DNA from: a virus
Virus record (IMG/VR): IMGVR_UViG_3300012228_000007
Span: 1-27,782 of that record
Strand: one strand, 5' to 3'
Length of the DNA stretch: 27,782 nt
Positions within the stretch are counted from its first letter, which is position 1. Each line of letters starts with the position of its first letter. The notes under the pieces are model-generated. The model had not been told where the DNA came from and ran no database searches. It saw only the letters and a program-made list of their open reading frames with translations. Shown in pieces: positions 978 to 24,943 of this stretch. The position numbers and the translations under genes were made by a program.

Positions 978-1115
978 ATGAGCAAAATTGACGAACTACT
1001 TGCGGCAGGCACAACCAATTTTGATTTTTTAGAGCCGCGCCCGCCTGCCGTCTGGTGCAAGCTGGGCGGCACGTTTTTTAGCTTCGTATTTTCGCTGGGC
1101 AATACGAGCAACTAA
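978..1115 (+). pseudogene. Possible truncated phage gene at the edge of the cassette array
   Basis: An ATG follows AAGGATCAAC nine bases after the tail-gene stop. The first 20 or so codons read plausibly as protein (MSKIDELLAAGTTNF...). The frame then runs into DNA that codes on the opposite strand for the 71-residue cassette-type protein, and stops after 45 codons. It may be the remaining 5' end of a late gene interrupted by the array at 1029-3415. A short genuine gene is also possible. I cannot identify the product. Confidence 0.35.
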
Positions 1116-1244
1116 GCGACGATGCTCAATACAATAACTATGCAAACTTGTGTACCTTTGTTCGTTACATCCTTCAAAGGCGCAAATCCCATCATTTGCA
1201 GTTAGACGATCATTTACTTTCCTTCGCTTTATTCCATCTTTCAT
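1029..1244 (-). CDS. Small zinc-ribbon-like protein, distal gene of cassette array
   Basis: Encodes 71 residues from an ATG preceded by AAAGGTG at good spacing. A longer in-frame extension to 1280 would start inside the attC-like site and is not needed. The middle carries C-x4-C, then ten residues, then C-x2-H (CAFEGC...YCIEHR), a likely metal-binding knuckle. The rest is very basic, which suggests nucleic-acid binding. It is the last gene of the array in transcription order. No attC follows it, so it may be a cassette with a lost attC or a resident gene at the boundary. Function unknown. Confidence 0.6.
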   Translation of the reverse strand: MKDGIKRRKVNDRLTANDGICAFEGCNEQRYTSLHSYCIEHRRLVARIAQRKYEAKKRAAQLAPDGRRARL

Positions 1245-1274
1245 TTTTGACACCTTTCTTTTGAGGGCGAAGCC

Positions 1275-1387
1275 GTCCAACGGCTTGCGTTACCCGCCCT
1301 ATGCAGGCAAGTTACTTTCGGATTTCACGACATCAGGCAGGCTCAAAACGCCAGCCTTCAAAGAGTCGGGTTCACGCGGTGTTAGGC
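1275..1387 (-). other. attC-like recombination site 1
   Basis: The site is 113 bp. On the plus strand it begins GTCCAAC (RYYYAAC) and ends GTTAGGC (GTTRRRY), the outer boxes of an integron attC. The inner arms GCGTTACCCG and CGGGTTCACGC pair with extrahelical bases on one side, as attC sites do. The same outer and inner pattern recurs at three further sites at 2030, 2555 and 3081. It lies between the methyltransferase gene and the 1029-1244 gene. Confidence 0.8.
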
Positions 1388-2021
1388 ACGTTATCATCTG
1401 CGAACCTAGCCATTCTGTATATGCGGGCGGGATTGCTTCAACGAGTTCAGCCCTAGTCATCCAACCAATACCCATTGCTTTTTTCGCTTTGGCTATTGGA
1501 GTGACGTTACCTGTGACTGTAATAAATTCTCCATTGGGATGTATTTGATCTCCATTCTTTCCGCCATTGCTTGATCGGGAGTGATGGTTGCATGAAGCAG
1601 GCGACATCATGATCGCAGGGTTGCACATAAATAACCGATGCCTAAAAACTCGTAAACCAAACATCGAGCCACAGAGCATTATGTAATTTGTCATTGGTGC
1701 GTCTTCGACATTCTCGACGATGTAAGGTTTGCCAGTCTCAATCAGGGCATCAATGGTTGGCTGAAGTAGATCGGGATGATTGTTTTGCGACCCGCTCAAC
1801 TTTGTAATTCTTGAATACCTTTGGCATGGCGGGCTTGCATGGATGACATCAAACTCCTGATAATGCTCTGCTAGATATTCGAGTGCGTCTGCATAGTGGA
1901 ACTCAAACGGGTAATGCGGCTGTGGGTCTTTATCAACGCCCACAACTTCAAAGCCCGCACGGGAATAACCCATACCTGCCCCACCAGCACAACAATATAA
2001 ATCGAGCAACTTTGGTTTCAT
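1299..2021 (-). CDS. C5 cytosine DNA methyltransferase (cassette gene)
   Basis: 240 residues. Motif I is at residues 6-24 (LDLYCCAGGAGMGYSRAGF). The catalytic motif IV SPPCQ is at 63-67, with Cys66 as nucleophile, and motif VI ENVED is at 103-107. The enzyme would transfer methyl groups from SAM to C5 of cytosine. It is shorter than typical Dcm/HhaI enzymes, so its target-recognition part is small. I chose the ATG only 8 nt past the core GTTAGGC of attC2 because the conserved fold begins there. There is no clear ribosome site, which is common for cassette genes. The last ~29 codons lie inside attC1, so the C-terminal tail is attC-derived. No restriction partner is visible, so an anti-restriction or regulatory role is likely. 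Confidence 0.9.
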   Translation of the reverse strand: MKPKLLDLYCCAGGAGMGYSRAGFEVVGVDKDPQPHYPFEFHYADALEYLAEHYQEFDVIHASPPCQRYSRITKLSGSQNNHPDLLQPTIDALIETGKPYIVENVEDAPMTNYIMLCGSMFGLRVFRHRLFMCNPAIMMSPASCNHHSRSSNGGKNGDQIHPNGEFITVTGNVTPIAKAKKAMGIGWMTRAELVEAIPPAYTEWLGSQMITCLTPREPDSLKAGVLSLPDVVKSESNLPA

Positions 2022-2029
2022 AAGCAAGT

Positions 2030-2158
2030 GCCTAACGGTTTGCGTTACTGGTTTGTGGGCGGGCTGGGTAACTGCCTGAGAGCAGGATAAACCCGAAGCC
2101 AGAAAAAAACTTGTAAACCGCGCAGACTCCCACAAATCCAGTGCACGCGGTGTTAGAC
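2030..2158 (-). other. attC-like recombination site 2
   Basis: The site is 129 bp, from GCCTAAC to GTTAGAC on the plus strand. Inner arms pair over a long stretch: GCGTTACTGGTTTGTGGG against CCCACAAATCCAGTGCACGC, with unpaired bases at the usual attC positions. The stop codon of the upstream gene (2162-2164) lies 3 nt before the first box, and the next gene starts 8 nt past the other box. That is the packing expected of gene cassettes. Confidence 0.88.
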
Positions 2159-2161
2159 CCG

Positions 2162-2530
2162 CTAAAAGTTTGGTTCGTTTTCTGCGGGTTCAGGCAAACG
2201 CTTCAAGCGATAAACCTGTTGTTGGAGTTCATCGGCGCGTGTTCTGAGTTCGTCGAACTGCTCTTTTGTTACCAGTTCGGGAACATACACGCTAACTGGA
2301 TTCACTCGGCATTGTTCAGCGGTGTGCGTGGCTACTTCTTGGCTTGTGAATGTCACGCAATAAATAGCGGCTTCGCCATAAAACTGCGTGAACTCTGAGA
2401 ATGTAGAAGTTGCAGGAACATCAACGCGCAACATCGGCGTTCCAAGTAATTCGCTTTTTTGAATGAGACCTGCAACAACCTTGTGTCCCATCAATTCCAC
2501 GATACCCCATTGTTGAATTTCGTCTGACAT
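2162..2530 (-). CDS. Conserved phage-type hypothetical protein (cassette gene)
   Basis: 122 residues, starting at an ATG with AAAGGAG six bases upstream. An in-frame upstream start at 2548 lacks such a site. The N-terminus (WGIVELMGHKVVAG) and the middle (GEAAIYCVTFTSQEVA) resemble a small family common in phages and mobile elements whose function I do not know. The C-terminal third is a predicted helix rich in Glu, Arg and Gln (QFDELRTRADELQQQ). It lies between attC3 and attC2. Confidence 0.75.
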   Translation of the reverse strand: MSDEIQQWGIVELMGHKVVAGLIQKSELLGTPMLRVDVPATSTFSEFTQFYGEAAIYCVTFTSQEVATHTAEQCRVNPVSVYVPELVTKEQFDELRTRADELQQQVYRLKRLPEPAENEPNF

Positions 2531-2554
2531 ATCAATCTCCTTTTGCAAGATAGG

Positions 2555-2643
2555 GTCTAACGGCTGGCGTTAGTTGCGCGAGCCTTGATTACTGTCCGAT
2601 TTTGCCTCACGTGGCGAAGCGTCAACTGCACGCCGTGTTAGCC
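2555..2643 (-). other. attC-like recombination site 3
   Basis: The site is 89 bp, bounded by GTCTAAC and GTTAGCC on the plus strand. The second box departs from GTTRRRY at one position. The inner arms GCGTTAGTTG and CAACTGCACGC pair with extrahelical T and GC. The TAA in the GCGTTA arm, read on the minus strand, is the stop of the upstream ASCH gene, the same arrangement as in attC4. Confidence 0.83.
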
Positions 2644-3058
2644 CGCATTCCCATAGGGACAGCGCCCCTTTTGCTGGGACTGGCTCAGGCAAGGCTACAA
2701 TGTTTTCAAGTATCCACATATAGCGACCAATTGCGTAATTGCCAAATGCAAGCTCATGCTCAGATGCAACTACCACACCAATAATTTTCTTCACTTCAAC
2801 AAGATTGCACGTGGCTATGATGCACCCAATTGGAAACGAATGACTTCCCAAATATGTTTCATTGAGTTTCACATAAGTGCCCAGATATGATCTAAATGGC
2901 TCTTTGAAACAAAGGTGCTGCGCTTCTTGTGGAAAACCTTTGGCGGCATGGATAGCAAGCTGACCGCGATAGGTTGTATTCCATGAGCGAGTTTCTATTT
3001 TCTTCGCCCCGATTGCCACCAATGTAGCCCAGGGCTGGGTAAGGGTAAGTGCTTTCAC
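2570..3058 (-). CDS. ASCH-domain protein (cassette gene)
   Basis: 162 residues from a GTG start with AAAAGGAG upstream. The N-terminus (KALTLTQPWATLVAIGAKKIETRSW, then YRGQLAIHAAKG) is the hallmark of ASCH/PUA-like domains. These bind RNA or modified nucleosides, and one bacterial branch (YqfB) hydrolyses N4-acetylcytidine. A beta-rich core follows (IGCIIATCNLVEV). The last ~24 residues are encoded by attC3 and are probably not part of the fold. Its place among DNA-modification cassettes suggests a nucleic-acid role, but the substrate cannot be read from the sequence. Confidence 0.85.
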   Translation of the reverse strand: MKALTLTQPWATLVAIGAKKIETRSWNTTYRGQLAIHAAKGFPQEAQHLCFKEPFRSYLGTYVKLNETYLGSHSFPIGCIIATCNLVEVKKIIGVVVASEHELAFGNYAIGRYMWILENIVALPEPVPAKGALSLWECGLTRRAVDASPREAKSDSNQGSRN

Positions 3059-3080
3059 GGCTCTCCTTTTGCAAGATGCG

Positions 3081-3176
3081 GGCTAACGGCTTGCGTTAGC
3101 CGCTGATGGTGGGGGGATTGGATTCGCCGTCCGATTGCGCCAGCCCACCATCAGTCGGCTGCACGCTTTGTTCGGC
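3081..3176 (-). other. attC-like recombination site 4
   Basis: The site is 96 bp, from GGCTAAC to GTTCGGC on the plus strand. The inner arms GCGTTAGCCGCTGATGGTGGG and CCCACCATCAGTCGGCTGCACGC pair over about 18 positions with the unpaired bases typical of attC. GCGTTA and TGCACGC are shared with sites 2 and 3. The box GTTCGGC resembles the GTTCGGT at the end of the array leader and the GTTCGGA of attC5. Confidence 0.85.
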
Positions 3177-3365
3177 GGCTTTCCATTCTTGCGAACCACA
3201 CACGCACATATAACCATGCAGGCGAGTGTGAACTGCATTAGCGATAGTATGCTGGCGACCACATCGCACACACTCCTCATCACGATTCCAAAACAAATCA
3301 GCAAACGGACGATTTGCAAGATCGGCATTCGCTTTTTGCCATTTAACTTTATTCCAGGGTTTCAT
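3096..3365 (-). CDS. Zinc-ribbon hypothetical protein, first cassette gene
   Basis: 89 residues, ATG preceded by AAAGGAG. Two cysteine pairs (CVRCG and CVCG, about 22 residues apart) form a likely zinc ribbon. The acidic/aromatic N-terminus (PWNKVKWQKANADL) is not recognised. The stop codon lies in the inner arm of attC4, so about the last 25 residues are attC-encoded tail. It is the cassette next to the leader at 3381-3415. Confidence 0.7.
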   Translation of the reverse strand: MKPWNKVKWQKANADLANRPFADLFWNRDEECVRCGRQHTIANAVHTRLHGYMCVCGSQEWKAAEQSVQPTDGGLAQSDGESNPPTISG

Positions 3366-3380
3366 CGTTTCTCCTTTGCC

Positions 3381-3415
3381 ACCGAACTAGTGTTTATGCG
3401 GAATGTACATCAAAA
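3381..3415 (-). other. attI-like leader of cassette array 1 (L1)
   Basis: On the minus strand this 35-bp segment begins TTTTGATGTACATTCCG and ends GTTCGGT, an integron-type core. It matches 30 of 35 positions of a second copy at 14285-14319, which also heads a cassette. It follows the stop codon of the 3424-3810 gene by 8 bp and precedes the first cassette gene. Role as the insertion site is inferred from position and duplication. Confidence 0.65.
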
Positions 3416-3423
3416 TTCTAACC

Positions 3424-4849: not shown

Positions 4850-5165
4850 GTGTAATATATAAATTTATGGATTAGTAGTAGTAGTAGGGAAAGGTACATC
4901 TCCCGTTTTTCACATTTGTTGCGTAATGAAGAAAGCGAAGATTTTAGAGTGAGGGAGATGTACCTTTTGCCTGTGGATAACTCAGGTACAACCCAGGTAC
5001 ATCTACCCCAAATCAGGTACATCTTTTCAGAAACGAGCCAACCTGTGGATAACTCAGCCACTTGTACCTTTTCAGTGGGAGATGTACCTAATCTATCCAC
5101 ATACTTATCCACAGTTTTAACTCTCCAAATAAGAGAGATGTACATTTTTAGAGGCACTTGTACCT
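4850..5165. other. Replication origin with iterons and DnaA boxes
   Basis: Three perfect DnaA boxes (TTATCCACA) lie at 4972-4980 and 5044-5052 (minus strand) and 5105-5113 (plus strand). A one-mismatch box CTATCCACA lies at 5093-5101. Interspersed is the 9-mer GGTACATCT/AGATGTACC at 4893, 4956, 4996, 5016 and 5080, with variants at 4985, 5062, 5136 and 5156. A 16-bp unit CCTGTGGATAACTCAG occurs twice, 72 bp apart. An AT-rich stretch (4849-4868) and a TAG triplet repeat (4873-4888) flank the left side. This is the usual make-up of an iteron origin with an unwinding element. The iteron-binding protein is not identified. Confidence 0.85.
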
Positions 5166-5578
5166 GGCTTCTGTTTGGACGACATCGGGACCAGCAGGAG
5201 CCTATCCCCTTCGGACTCATACTTCCAGTAGTAGTCCTCGTACGCATCGGGCAGAGATTGGAACTGCTTTACATAGTCCATCCAACCGCTTTCAGACCAA
5301 TACCAGACATTCAGTAGTCGGCGGTCACGCAAGCGACAATCGCAAAGCAGTTGATCTTCGAACTGTTGCCGAAGAATAAGCGGGACATCGGGCGCGTCAC
5401 CATCCATTTGCACCACAGGAACAGGATACACACTCGTAATTGAGCAAGTGACATCCACACTATTCCACCCAATCTCGACCATCGAGCGGCACATTCCCCG
5501 ATTCTTATAGTGCAATTCCCAATTCACACCGCGCAGCCGATACACATCGGCTTTTCTCACGACCTGCCGCCTAGCCAT
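5117..5578 (-). CDS. Hypothetical protein next to the origin
   Basis: 153 residues from the ATG at MARRQVVRKADVYRLRG, with an 8-bp overlap with the upstream gene. The sequence is rich in Trp and Tyr (NVWYWSESGWMDYVKQF, EDYYWKYESEGDRLLL) and has a basic N-terminus. Its 3' end reaches into the iteron region. An origin-binding role is conceivable from position only. I do not recognise a Rep fold. Confidence 0.65.
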   Translation of the reverse strand: MARRQVVRKADVYRLRGVNWELHYKNRGMCRSMVEIGWNSVDVTCSITSVYPVPVVQMDGDAPDVPLILRQQFEDQLLCDCRLRDRRLLNVWYWSESGWMDYVKQFQSLPDAYEDYYWKYESEGDRLLLVPMSSKQKPGTSASKNVHLSYLES

Positions 5579-7495: not shown

Positions 7496-8317
7496 ATGGA
7501 CATAGAAAACTTTCTCTCTTCGGCGCACCCATACGCCGAATCCAGCAAGCGCACGTATCGGGATGTGATCAATCGCATCCTCGAGGACAAAGACCCCGCC
7601 GCCATCACGGCAACGGAGTTAATTCAATTATTGAAATCAAGCGGATGGGAGAATGCGCGGCAGTGTCTTGCGCTAGCCGCGATTCAAAAGTATCTCGCGT
7701 GGACTTACGGCCAATCTCACCCCGCACTATCAGCCAAGCTCAAACGCGTTACAGGAAAAATCCAAAGAGCCATCACGAGGGAGGAAAAGGACATCATCCT
7801 CGCCTCGTTCGACACCACCACAACTACCGGCTCGCGCGATCTGGCAATCGCCGCGCTCGCGCTCGATACAGGCTTACGCCTGTCCGAGCTATGCCACATA
7901 AAACAAGCAGACACCGATACAAAACTCGGAGTACTGCAAGTCATTACAAAAGGCGGTCAGTGGGAAATGGCGATCTTCAGCGAAGATACTGCGTCCTACA
8001 TCGAACACTGGAAAAAATTCCGCGCCGATCATTCCCCAAAAGGACATCTTTTTATAAACATCTTCACAGGCGAAGGCCTCACGCCAGGCGGCTTACAATC
8101 CATCATCAAAGTATGGAACAAACGCACAGGCTTAAGTTTCTCAGCCCATGCCTTCAGAAGGGGATTCGCCACCATGGCCACAGAAAACGGAGCAACCGAA
8201 CGGGATCTGATGCTCGGCGGCAGATGGAAATCAAATCAAATGGTAGCGCGCTACACACGTTCCCTAAAACTGGAAAACATGAGAAAATATCTTCCACTTC
8301 GGAAAATCCTACCGTAG
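7496..8317 (+). CDS. int: Tyrosine recombinase (phage integrase)
   Basis: 273 residues, ATG with AGGAG eight bases upstream. The N-terminal ~90 residues form the SAM-like core-binding domain (FLSSAHPYAESSKRTYRDV). The catalytic domain follows with Arg128 (LDTGLRLSEL), Lys152 (TKGGQW), His218-x2-Arg221 (HAFRR), Trp244 in the second His position (GGRWKS) and nucleophile Tyr253 (ARYT). It would insert and excise the phage at a tRNA-Gly gene, since tRNA-derived DNA begins at its stop codon. It lacks the extra helix region and the length (~320 residues) typical of integron IntI enzymes, so it is not the obvious source of the attC-bounded cassettes. Confidence 0.93.
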   Translation: MDIENFLSSAHPYAESSKRTYRDVINRILEDKDPAAITATELIQLLKSSGWENARQCLALAAIQKYLAWTYGQSHPALSAKLKRVTGKIQRAITREEKDIILASFDTTTTTGSRDLAIAALALDTGLRLSELCHIKQADTDTKLGVLQVITKGGQWEMAIFSEDTASYIEHWKKFRADHSPKGHLFINIFTGEGLTPGGLQSIIKVWNKRTGLSFSAHAFRRGFATMATENGATERDLMLGGRWKSNQMVARYTRSLKLENMRKYLPLRKILP

Positions 8318-8370
8318 AACGCTTGCTTCCCAAGCAAGATATCGTGGGTTCGAGTCCCATCACCCGCTCA
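8315..8370 (+). other. attP: 3' part of tRNA-Gly(CCC)
   Basis: The sequence from GTAGAAC on reproduces the 3' half of a tRNA-Gly. The anticodon stem-loop is CTTGC-TTCCCAA-GCAAG (anticodon CCC). The T arm is GTGGG-TTCGAGT-CCCAT and the acceptor strand is CACCCGC. The 5' half is absent, so this is not a functional tRNA gene. Phages that integrate in tRNA genes carry such a fragment next to int and restore the tRNA on insertion. It starts at the last codon of the integrase gene. Confidence 0.9.
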
Positions 8371-14089: not shown

Positions 14090-14290
14090 ATGAAACACAG
14101 ATTCCGCCCCGATCTTAGCGACTACGAAATTTTAATAATGTCGCTGGTTGACAAACTCAATGAAAATAGTGTATACAAAATGAGCAAGACCGACGCGGTA
14201 AAATTCGCAATCGAGAAGGCAGTTAAAAGCGTTCTGCCTGATGTTGTGATCAAACCAAAACGGAAGAGATACATTAAATTAGAGTTTTGA
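14090..14290 (+). CDS. Small basic helical protein
   Basis: 66 residues. Helices (YEILIMSLVDKLNEN and KTDAVKFAIEKAVKSV) are separated by a short YKMSKT turn and followed by a Lys/Arg-rich tail (KPKRKRYIKLEF). This is reminiscent of a small DNA-binding protein, but the family is not certain. Its stop codon lies inside the leader of cassette site 2. Confidence 0.6.
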   Translation: MKHRFRPDLSDYEILIMSLVDKLNENSVYKMSKTDAVKFAIEKAVKSVLPDVVIKPKRKRYIKLEF

Positions 14291-14319
14291 TGTACATTCC
14301 GTATATACAGTAGTTAGGC
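14285..14319 (+). other. attI-like leader of cassette site 2 (L2)
   Basis: Identical to L1 (3381-3415, minus strand) for the first 17 bases (TTTTGATGTACATTCCG) and at 30 of 35 overall. It ends in GTTAGGC, a textbook integron core box. The TGA of the upstream gene lies within it. The cassette gene starts 9 nt after the core. Confidence 0.68.
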
Positions 14320-14328
14320 AACCATACA

Positions 14329-14805
14329 ATGTTGATTTCAGGCCAGAACTGGTATTCCCTCAAAGATGGCGATCCAATGGCAAGGGCTTTATTCGATAGG
14401 CATTACTCACGATACTTCTATGCCGATGGTCGAAAGCCTAAGTTATTTGTTGGCCCAGGTTCAAAGATGGTTCTGATGACTTCTGATGGTACGGCCTTGT
14501 TTGTATGGCGCAAGTTTATCAGCGGCGATGGTCAGCAAGGCGTTAATTGTGCAATCTTCCGAAACGAAGGCCACATACTTTCGAGTGATCTAATTCTTGA
14601 AGCTGAAATATTGGGTTGGTCAAGATGGCCGAATGAGAGATTGTATACCTATGTCAATCCAAAGGGTATCAAATCAAGTAACCCTGGATACTGTTTTATA
14701 AAAGCTGGTTGGGCGAAGGTCGGTGTAACTAAGGTGAATAAACTAATCATCTTGGCAAAGATGCCTTCTGGTTGCCTAACACAGCATGGAGCGGACGCGA
14801 TATAA
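14329..14805 (+). CDS. Mom-like/GNAT-fold phage protein (cassette gene)
   Basis: 158 residues. The pattern ALFDRHYSR, then FVGPGSKMVLMTSDGTALFVWRKF, then CAIFRNEGHILSSDLILEAE and NPGYCFIKAGWAKVG fits a family of phage proteins related to the GNAT-fold. I associate it with Mom-type DNA modification enzymes, which alter adenines to resist restriction. The family call is from memory of the pattern, not from a search. Start lies 9 nt after the core of L2 with no strong ribosome site, as for the methyltransferase cassette. The last ~10 residues lie inside attC5. Confidence 0.6.
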   Translation: MLISGQNWYSLKDGDPMARALFDRHYSRYFYADGRKPKLFVGPGSKMVLMTSDGTALFVWRKFISGDGQQGVNCAIFRNEGHILSSDLILEAEILGWSRWPNERLYTYVNPKGIKSSNPGYCFIKAGWAKVGVTKVNKLIILAKMPSGCLTQHGADAI

Positions 14806-14832
14806 CTGCGCCGCTCATGCAAACCGTTCGGA
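14774..14832 (+). other. attC site 5 (canonical short form)
   Basis: 59 bp from GCCTAAC to GTTCGGA. The arms GCATGGAGCGG and CCGCTCATGC pair except for one extrahelical G, and a short CGC/GCG pair closes the tip. Length, boxes and the single bulged base match classical attC sites. Confidence 0.88.
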
Positions 14833-14862
14833 GGCATCTTGCCAGCCGAGAGAAAGGTCAAA

Positions 14863-15144
14863 ATGAAACTTGCAAAACAATTTATCAAGGCACAAGGCGG
14901 TTTTACTATGTGGGAAGTTGAACAGCATTATCAGCCGCTCATGTCTCAATGCAAAACGCCAGACGAATTGGGCGTATTGCTTGAAGAATGGCGTAGTGTT
15001 CGTGCCGGCTATGTTTCCCCCTGGATGGAACAGCCGAACAAAAGATGCACTGGCTTGGCGGAAGTCTGCCCGAATTGCAACACTAAATGGCAGTTTCACA
15101 ATCCCCGCGTTTGTTCTCTGCAACCCGCCAAGCCAGTAATCTAA
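14863..15144 (+). CDS. Zinc-ribbon hypothetical protein (cassette gene)
   Basis: 93 residues from an ATG with GAAAGGTC upstream. A helical N-terminal half (KLAKQFIKAQGGFTMWEVEQHY) is followed by a cysteine pair (CPNCNTKWQFHNPRVC) with a nearby Cys, a probable zinc ribbon. Its stop codon is part of ATCTAAC, which fits a first attC box, but no partner box follows. The cassette may have lost the rest of its attC. Confidence 0.65.
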   Translation: MKLAKQFIKAQGGFTMWEVEQHYQPLMSQCKTPDELGVLLEEWRSVRAGYVSPWMEQPNKRCTGLAEVCPNCNTKWQFHNPRVCSLQPAKPVI

Positions 15145-15433
15145 CCAGGCAGAGATTTTATTTTGTAAATTTTTTAAGCCCGCGATGGCGCGGGCTTCGG
15201 CATCGCCGCAAGCGGACGCAGATCGTGGATGCAGTCGGCTTGCTCTCAGGGTTGGCTTTATGTGCGCGCGCTCTAGCTCGAGCGCAAACCTTAATGATTC
15301 GAAACTCTGATTCTATCCCCCTAAAACCAACGCGGCTACATGCCAAGCGGGTTTCTTGCATGTAGCCGCCAGCTGAGAACACCATTTCTGGCGATGCTGG
15401 CCATAACCACCAGAAATGACGATGAGTGATCGA
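15145..15433. other. Non-coding region with strong inverted repeats
   Basis: No gene supported. It contains a 9-bp stem AAGCCCGCG-ATGG-CGCGGGCTT (15177-15198), a 12-bp perfect stem GCGGCTACATGC/GCATGTAGCCGC (15330-15367) and ATTTCTGG/CCAGAAAT (15384-15418). The last two should terminate or stabilise the adenine methyltransferase mRNA from the minus strand. Confidence 0.55.
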
Positions 15434-23897: not shown

Positions 23898-24422
23898 ATG
23901 GGTTACGCACACAATACGCATATGAGTCAGTACATCCCGCCCACTGCCATGCACTTTGTCACAGGCACGTGGACGGACGCGGCAGGCGCAGTCGCAGGCA
24001 CAATTGCGAAACATAAAGCCGCAGGCGCACAAACAGCCGTTGTCAACGTTCCGATCCAAATCCCAAGCAACAGCGGCGTGGATGTGGCAGGACTTCCAAA
24101 CAGAGGAAGCCTGCTCAAGTCAATTGAACTGGATTATGAACTTCTGCTTGCAGTCGCAACCAGCGTCACGGCCACCCTTCGGCTGGTGAAACGCGGAGCA
24201 GACGGCGCAGTCGCAGTCGTCAGCACACCGGCAATCACCCAGGACCTGACCGCAGCAACCGACGCGGCAGATGAAGATCAGCATAAGTTGACAGTCACGC
24301 TAACCAATCCCGCATACATCGAGAACGATGAGTATTATCTATGCACGTTCGCCTTTATCTGCGGTGGAACTGTCACAATTGACGTGTTGGGCGCAGTTGC
24401 CAATTACACGTTTAGGGCATAG
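23898..24422 (+). CDS. Late structural paralogue 1 (decoration or minor capsid protein)
   Basis: 174 residues, ATG with AAGGAG upstream. Begins GYAHNTHMSQYIPPT and contains GTWTDAAGAVAGTIAKHKA and a beta-rich C-terminus (HKLTVTLTNPAYIENDEYYLC). It is clearly homologous to the following gene along its whole length. Position straight after the capsid gene suggests a decoration or head-stabilising protein. A homologue of known function is not recognised. Confidence 0.75.
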   Translation: MGYAHNTHMSQYIPPTAMHFVTGTWTDAAGAVAGTIAKHKAAGAQTAVVNVPIQIPSNSGVDVAGLPNRGSLLKSIELDYELLLAVATSVTATLRLVKRGADGAVAVVSTPAITQDLTAATDAADEDQHKLTVTLTNPAYIENDEYYLCTFAFICGGTVTIDVLGAVANYTFRA

Positions 24423-24430
24423 GAGCAACC

Positions 24431-24943
24431 ATGACATCCATTCGTGATACCCACATGTCACAGTACATTCCTCCAACCCTGTTTCATTGCATCACAGGCA
24501 CTTGGACACAAGCCGCAGGCGCAGTCGCAGGCACAATTGCGAAACATGTCGCTGCCACCGATGAAGCATCGGTAGTCACCATCCCGATCATGTTGCCATC
24601 CAACAGCCAGGGATTACAAGGTGCATATCTGAAATCAATCGAGATTGACTATGAAATTCTGATAGCCGCTTGTGATGCGGTTGATGCAGTCGTCAACAAA
24701 GTCACACGCGGAGCAGACGGCGCAGTCGCAGTCGTAGCGGCACAAGCATTCACCTACGACACAGGCCACGACGTAGACACCGAGAGATACGACGTAGACC
24801 AGCACAAGATGACCATCACAATAACTACACCGTTCTGGCTGGACAATGACGTATATGTACTCCTAGAACTCACATTCGATAAAGCGGCAACCACCACAGT
24901 TGACCTGCTCGGCGCAGTCGCAAACTTCGACCTGGAAATATAA
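24431..24943 (+). CDS. Late structural paralogue 2 (decoration or minor capsid protein)
   Basis: 170 residues, ATG eight bases after the previous stop. Shares HMSQYIPPT, AAGAVAGTIAKH, RGADGAVAVV and DQHKLT/DQHKMT blocks with its neighbour, so the two arose by tandem duplication. The loops between strands differ, which would let the pair occupy different positions in the capsid. Confidence 0.75.
   Translation: MTSIRDTHMSQYIPPTLFHCITGTWTQAAGAVAGTIAKHVAATDEASVVTIPIMLPSNSQGLQGAYLKSIEIDYEILIAACDAVDAVVNKVTRGADGAVAVVAAQAFTYDTGHDVDTERYDVDQHKMTITITTPFWLDNDVYVLLELTFDKAATTTVDLLGAVANFDLEI

Follow-up and report, generated by a model that had tools for sequence, protein, structure and literature searches.

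Does a run of minus-strand genes near one end of a phage genome constitute an integron cassette array and, if so, which enzyme placed the cassettes there? An earlier note on this DNA had proposed an integron-type array inside a phage genome, and both halves of that proposal held. The stretch analyzed here in full (the window, a single 27,782-base virus record from IMG/VR) contains matches to an attC model, together with a 123-bp direct terminal repeat and genes encoding terminase, portal, head and head-protease proteins. Relatives of the terminase number 30 in IMG/VR, and the sole match among isolated phages is that of a Bacillus phage, at 28% identity. Two tandem paralogous structural genes (71% DNA identity over 161 nt) occupy positions 23898-24943, and Rfam has no family matching the window. 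Coordinates are summarized in Table 1.

Table 1. Arrays, attI-like sites, p66 and recombinase gene of the window (attC scores from the covariance model; the bar in a sequence marks the crossover).
Feature	Position	Strand	Product or sequence	attC (bits)	Further detail
attI-like site, array A	3385-3411	-	GATGTACATTCCGCATAAACACTAG|TT		Crossover between G3387 and T3386
Cassette A1	3087-3386	-	89-aa Cys-rich protein (3096-3365)	3081-3176 (62.7)	
Cassette A2	2561-3086	-	ASCH-domain protein (2570-3058, GTG start)	2555-2643 (54.2)	Pfam ASCH, 25.7 bits; start/own R'' flank match 12 nt
Cassette A3	2036-2560	-	122-aa protein (2162-2530)	2030-2158 (55.2)	PHROG 29525 (function unknown); start/own R'' flank match 9 nt
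Cassette A4	1281-2035	-	C5 cytosine DNA methyltransferase (1299-2021)	1275-1387 (56.3)	Pfam DNA_methylase; PHROG 363
Array A end	1029-1280	-	71-aa ORF (1029-1244)	none	
Tyrosine recombinase	7496-8317	+	Xer/phage-integrase type		PF00589; PHROG 1 integrase
p66	14090-14290	+	66-aa small basic two-helix protein		Stop codon overlaps the array B attI by 2 bp
attI-like site, array B	14289-14315	+	GATGTACATTCCGTATATACAGTAG|TT		
Cassette B1	14314-14826	+	158-aa protein (14329-14805)	14774-14832 (56.0)	PHROG 24928 (function unknown); start/own R'' flank match 12 nt
Cassette B2	14827-15150	+	93-aa protein (14863-15144)	15033-15150 (degenerate)	

Four attC-like intervals had been proposed in the minus-strand array (array A), with an attC covariance model as the means of checking them. 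Such a model, trained on other phages' sites alone (19 sites aligned, loops shortened) and run with default filters, recovered all four with exactly the proposed ends (54-63 bits; E<=6e-11 over 475 kb). With filters off, the same model found two of the four as cores and the other two as fragments only, since the loops of such long-loop sites exceed those of the model. Paired attC columns covaried (0.414 versus 0.115 when shuffled and 0.07-0.12 when slid, counted on a structure with one pair off by one column). The five model-detected sites of the window have the R'', L'', L' and R' boxes of attC, its fold and its unpaired bases in the L'' arm. As had been described, stop codons in array A lie inside an attC or at most 4 nt away, and start codons lie 9-31 nt beyond the core box. 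Consensus outer boxes had been claimed throughout; the model matches all four sites, but the R'' box of 3081-3176 is non-consensus (GCCGAAC) and agrees with the first bases of the cassette it belongs to (G|TTCGGTGGC). The C5 methyltransferase and ASCH cargo was confirmed by Pfam. Of five genes assigned to the array, four are cassettes with an attC, but the fifth (1029-1244) has none of its own: the covariance model gave no match downstream of it, and no homologue was found among the loci compared. It is therefore either a truncated cassette or remnant, or a resident gene.

A second array (array B) lies on the plus strand at 14314-15150. Its last attC gave no match with the covariance model and, as read from the sequence, retains R'' and the inner arms while the R' box is gone. 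A true cassette takes its first bases from the R' half of the attC that belongs to it, and these bases therefore match the R'' flank read backwards. Such a match was found in six of six window cassettes (6, 12, 9, 9, 12 and 6 nt); cassette A1, for example, starts with GTTCGGTGGC and has GTTCGGCGGC as its own R'' flank. For 23 cassettes from several phages, own pairs matched over a mean of 8.4 nt compared to 3.8 nt for other pairs, a difference reached in 0 of 20000 permutations, with a few pairs mis-assigned (one L046 site was omitted) and the resulting bias directed against the result. The own-R'' match is the mark of a cassette that was once circular. With no intI nearby, four attC sites in array A, and one good and one degenerate site in array B, both arrays qualify as CALINs (at least two attC, no intI nearby). 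They are also partly decayed, since the last gene of array A lacks an attC and the last attC of array B lacks its R' box. Such decayed ends would fit arrays that are pieces of a chromosomal integron caught by phage mosaicism and now carried as passive cargo with no cassette traffic. The off-target or illegitimate recombination that Qi et al. (2023; PMC9892861) proposed for phage CALINs would be in line with such a relic.

The sites at which the two arrays begin argue otherwise. A 40-nt inverted repeat, 88% identical between its copies (3382-3421 and 14279-14318), ends in each case with TAG|TT, at which a cassette starts, and each array sits at the 3' end of a same-strand run of phage genes. 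The attI-like motif of 26 bp, RTGTACAYTCYGYNYAAnnnMTAG|TT, was derived from 19 sites with 12 invariant columns, and its information content is 1.55 bits per position inside versus 0.44 and 0.29 outside, a conservation that was partly forced by the search patterns. As in an attI, the site is conserved, ends in G|TT and is joined there to the first cassette. The motif heads cassette arrays in ~16 other IMG/VR contigs, and two copies are present in a 60-kb contig from a different kind of phage. Passive chromosomal pieces would hardly be expected to leave so compact an element (26 bp, no intI remnant) twice in the window phage and twice in that contig.

A pattern for the attC right arm found 105 stretches in IMG/VR (286 model matches among the 80 loci listed); with CALINs published in 2023 (PMC9892861), the earlier description of cassette structure as very rare in phages was too strong. 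Eight distinct attI copies lie ahead of arrays in this set. They were found via attC matches and a matrix without the TGTA box, which makes them the least biased copies, and all eight have RTG[TA]A. One copy (L198) does not stand directly ahead of detected attC sites. A relaxed attI pattern yielded four further sites (L256, L257, L260 and L261) and two chance matches without attC; L260 and L261 were accepted by reading the sequence, the attC model having given no match there. Nine loci (L033-L035, L037, L038, L110, L111, L258 and L259) were set aside as chance pattern matches with no attC. Elsewhere in the window, positions 4856-5175 contain about ten TGTAC repeats (AGATGTACCT type, on both strands) with TTATCCACA-like boxes, and this cluster, probably the origin of replication, has a repeat similar to the GATGTACA box of attI.

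The 19 shared sites also bear on whether the cassettes could have entered through the action of a host IntI on non-classical secondary sites (attG), with no dedicated attI involved. Insertion at attG is an accepted route by which cassettes enter genomes (cited in PMC12901181 and PMC11389934), and no recognisable attI precedes the arrays of L016 and L008. In contrast to attG sites, which have been described as divergent, the sites found here have a 26-bp motif in common, the core of which is also found beside host intI. We therefore regard attG insertion as very improbable.

Array B is preceded by the small gene p66, which permits comparison at a shared position. Homologues of p66 (35-82% identical) have their ends at -13 to +2 bp relative to attI in nine other phage records (L004, L017, L036, L186, L204, L257, L260, L261 and L044), and the gene is also found just ahead of attI in L268. 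The attI site is better conserved than the p66 protein. The predicted structure of p66 consists of two helices (pLDDT 84) with no fold match in the PDB; a guess by eye that it might be a ribbon-helix-helix protein was dropped on these grounds. Proteins 77-87% identical to that of the window occur in L004, L016, L017 and L036, and the arrays behind them are unrelated. In L004, L017 and L036 the p66 homologue is followed by the attI motif and then by cassettes unlike those of the window. Related phages thus have entirely different cassettes at one and the same p66-attI junction. A comparison of this kind had been suggested in the earlier note, and at the syntenic array B locus, where it was made, different cassettes were found rather than the same genes in the same order beside decayed or absent sites. 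This turnover is difficult to reconcile with cargo that no longer moves and, taken together with the compact and repeated attI, it leads us to consider a relic origin unlikely.

What, then, moves the cassettes? The window encodes a tyrosine recombinase, and either it or another phage enzyme might have done so. As a candidate IntI this recombinase was rejected, there being no TIGR02249 match in the window. It adjoins a tRNA-like 3' end (GTGGGTTCGAGTCCC) at 8339-8358, directly behind the integrase gene, which is likely to be the attP core; a full tRNA gene was not found there. Moreover, 13 of 17 attI-bearing phage records contain no PF00589 tyrosine recombinase at all, and IntI (TIGR02249) was found in 0 of the 17, window included, although absence is not proof because most phage records are fragments. 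Neither in the window nor in the 16 other attI-bearing records does an intI adjoin attI, as it would in a complete integron. Movement by a phage enzyme is accordingly an explanation to which we attach very little weight. Three viral contigs (L168, L188 and L212) contain a full IntI together with attC. These are possibly complete phage-borne integrons, and the integrase can therefore travel with phage-type DNA.

The probable hosts could themselves supply an integrase. Almost every terminase relative found in bacterial genomes is from Chloroflexota, with the closest in Anaerolineales (57% identity at best). Hosts are thus predicted to be Chloroflexota, most likely Anaerolineales, an assignment drawn from terminase similarity. 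An integron integrase scoring above the curated cut-off was found in 103 of 301 Anaerolineales genomes compared to 0 of 14 controls. When the phage attI matrix was applied to 33 intI loci, on the divergent side upstream of the gene, 11 scored above their shuffles (p<0.05). The highest-scoring host sites, at 18-20 bits, are those of L082, L091, L081 and L109; their distance from intI is 133-193 bp, and what follows them resembles the start of a cassette. Likeness to the phage site extends to the core only, the upstream box being different. With the same matrix, the attI of Shewanella given by Qi et al. (PMC9892861) scored 0.2 bits. The attC model trained on phages also matched host arrays, with scores up to 64.5 bits.

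One cassette ties the window to a host integron. In an Anaerolineales genome (G263), a gene located 530 bp from intI is 80% identical to the C5 methyltransferase of cassette A4; it forms cassette 2 of a chromosomal integron there, starts nearly identically (GTTAGGCACTTnCTTATGAAACCAAAG) and lies between two attC sites scoring 58.8 and 51.4 bits. DNA similarity between the two cassettes runs from the preceding attC into their own attC, and another phage (L008) has a related methyltransferase cassette. Host homologues of the ASCH protein are just 26-49% identical, and the attC model found no site near the best of them (L151). This host link, the attI sites and the second array, all overlooked in the earlier note, are the more surprising parts of the locus.

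The strict attI 26-mer had 0 matches in 84,980 bacterial and archaeal genomes, and the relaxed motif had four exact copies in the 301 Anaerolineales genomes. One of the four is on L268, a phage-like contig in a bacterial genome bin that combines the attI motif with p66 and five attC. The other three are in seemingly chromosomal regions (L267, L269 and L270), and in L267 the sequence ahead of attI reads like the C-terminus of p66. Since such motifs occur in Anaerolineales genomes as well, the boundary between phage and chromosomal attI is not sharp. One Anaerolineales chromosome (G180; L133-L135) has three copies of a single attI region, one of them beside an intact intI; a prophage origin for the extra copies was rejected, as the regions are ordinary chromosome, one with an intI remnant. 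In G240 (L136), an attI-like site and intI are on different contigs.

Since the arrays are present without an enzyme to move them, the host's enzyme is probably used to collect host genes. Based on the sequence comparisons above, we think it probable that the window represents an integron platform without an integrase, the stand-alone attI sites of which are loaded in trans by host IntI. Each of the two attI, at the 3' end of a phage operon, would receive cassettes at G|TT. We infer that the chromosomal integron integrase of the host binds phage attI and acts in trans during infection or lysogeny, such that circular cassettes excised from host arrays (via attC, as a folded bottom strand) would recombine into the phage site, and that host IntI might later shuffle or remove them. 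Transcription would occur by read-through from the upstream phage operon, and cassettes of benefit to the phage would be kept, such as DNA methyltransferases acting against host restriction. Methyltransferase cassettes do recur, C5 enzymes in the window and in L008 and N6/N4 enzymes in L046, which would suggest an anti-restriction role as Qi et al. (PMC9892861) proposed. Many other viruses appear to collect cassettes likewise. Host IntI might bind phage attI poorly, because the inverted repeat of some host sites is absent and a TGTACA box is present instead. We offer more tentatively, and with some doubt, the view that phages of Anaerolineales evolved a dedicated capture platform (attI, often with p66) for taking genes from the host integron by means of the host's integrase, in which the TGTACA box and p66 would tune or trigger that reaction to the advantage of the phage.

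Integrons are usually viewed as a bacterium's own adaptive device. If phages bring docking sites and use the host integrase, the same machine could also provide viruses with genes of their hosts, methyltransferases among them, and cassettes would be moved between bacteria in a phylum seldom studied for this. Phage-integron exchange, known so far from scattered cases, would become a recurrent system that has defined sites and can be tested.

Several known systems invite comparison. Qi et al. (2023) reported 17 CALINs in phages, and IntI1 recombined five of the six attC sites from phages that they tested (PMC9892861). Those CALINs resemble the arrays described here in their same-direction cassettes with attC, lack of intI and DNA methyltransferase cargo. 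In contrast to them, the present arrays are headed by a phage-type attI which is conserved and found again in many phages, and a link to a host integron can be drawn for one cassette. The Shewanella cryptic prophage M16-3 contains a CALIN headed by a Shewanella attI that differs by 1 nt from that of S. oneidensis MR-1 (PMC9892861); there too, an array without intI in phage-type DNA starts with attI. However, the attI of M16-3 is the host's own, and the same prophage also has a complete integron, whereas the attI of the window is short, unlike host attI upstream of the core, and recurrent in different phages. A literature search that took in few subscription papers and no preprints found no description of a recurrent, intI-less phage-type attI common to different phages.

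Chromosomal integrons of Anaerolineales have the same attC type as the window, a similar attI core (TTCCGYATAAnnnATAG|TTRGGC) and one cassette in common with it, but the phage lacks intI and its promoter. Some host attI have the inverted repeat TTATRCGGA...TCCGYATAA, in which the TTATRCGGA arm is replaced by the TGTACA box in phage attI. Similar to attI1 and delta-attI1 (minimal AAACAAAGTTRRRY; PMC12901181), the phage site has an L-type AAAC box a few bases ahead of G|TTRRRY; its spacer (AAACACTAG|TT or AAAACATAG|TT) and upstream element differ from those of attI1. Phage cassette arrays were already known (PMC9892861), and the recurrent stand-alone phage-type attI appears to be the part added here.
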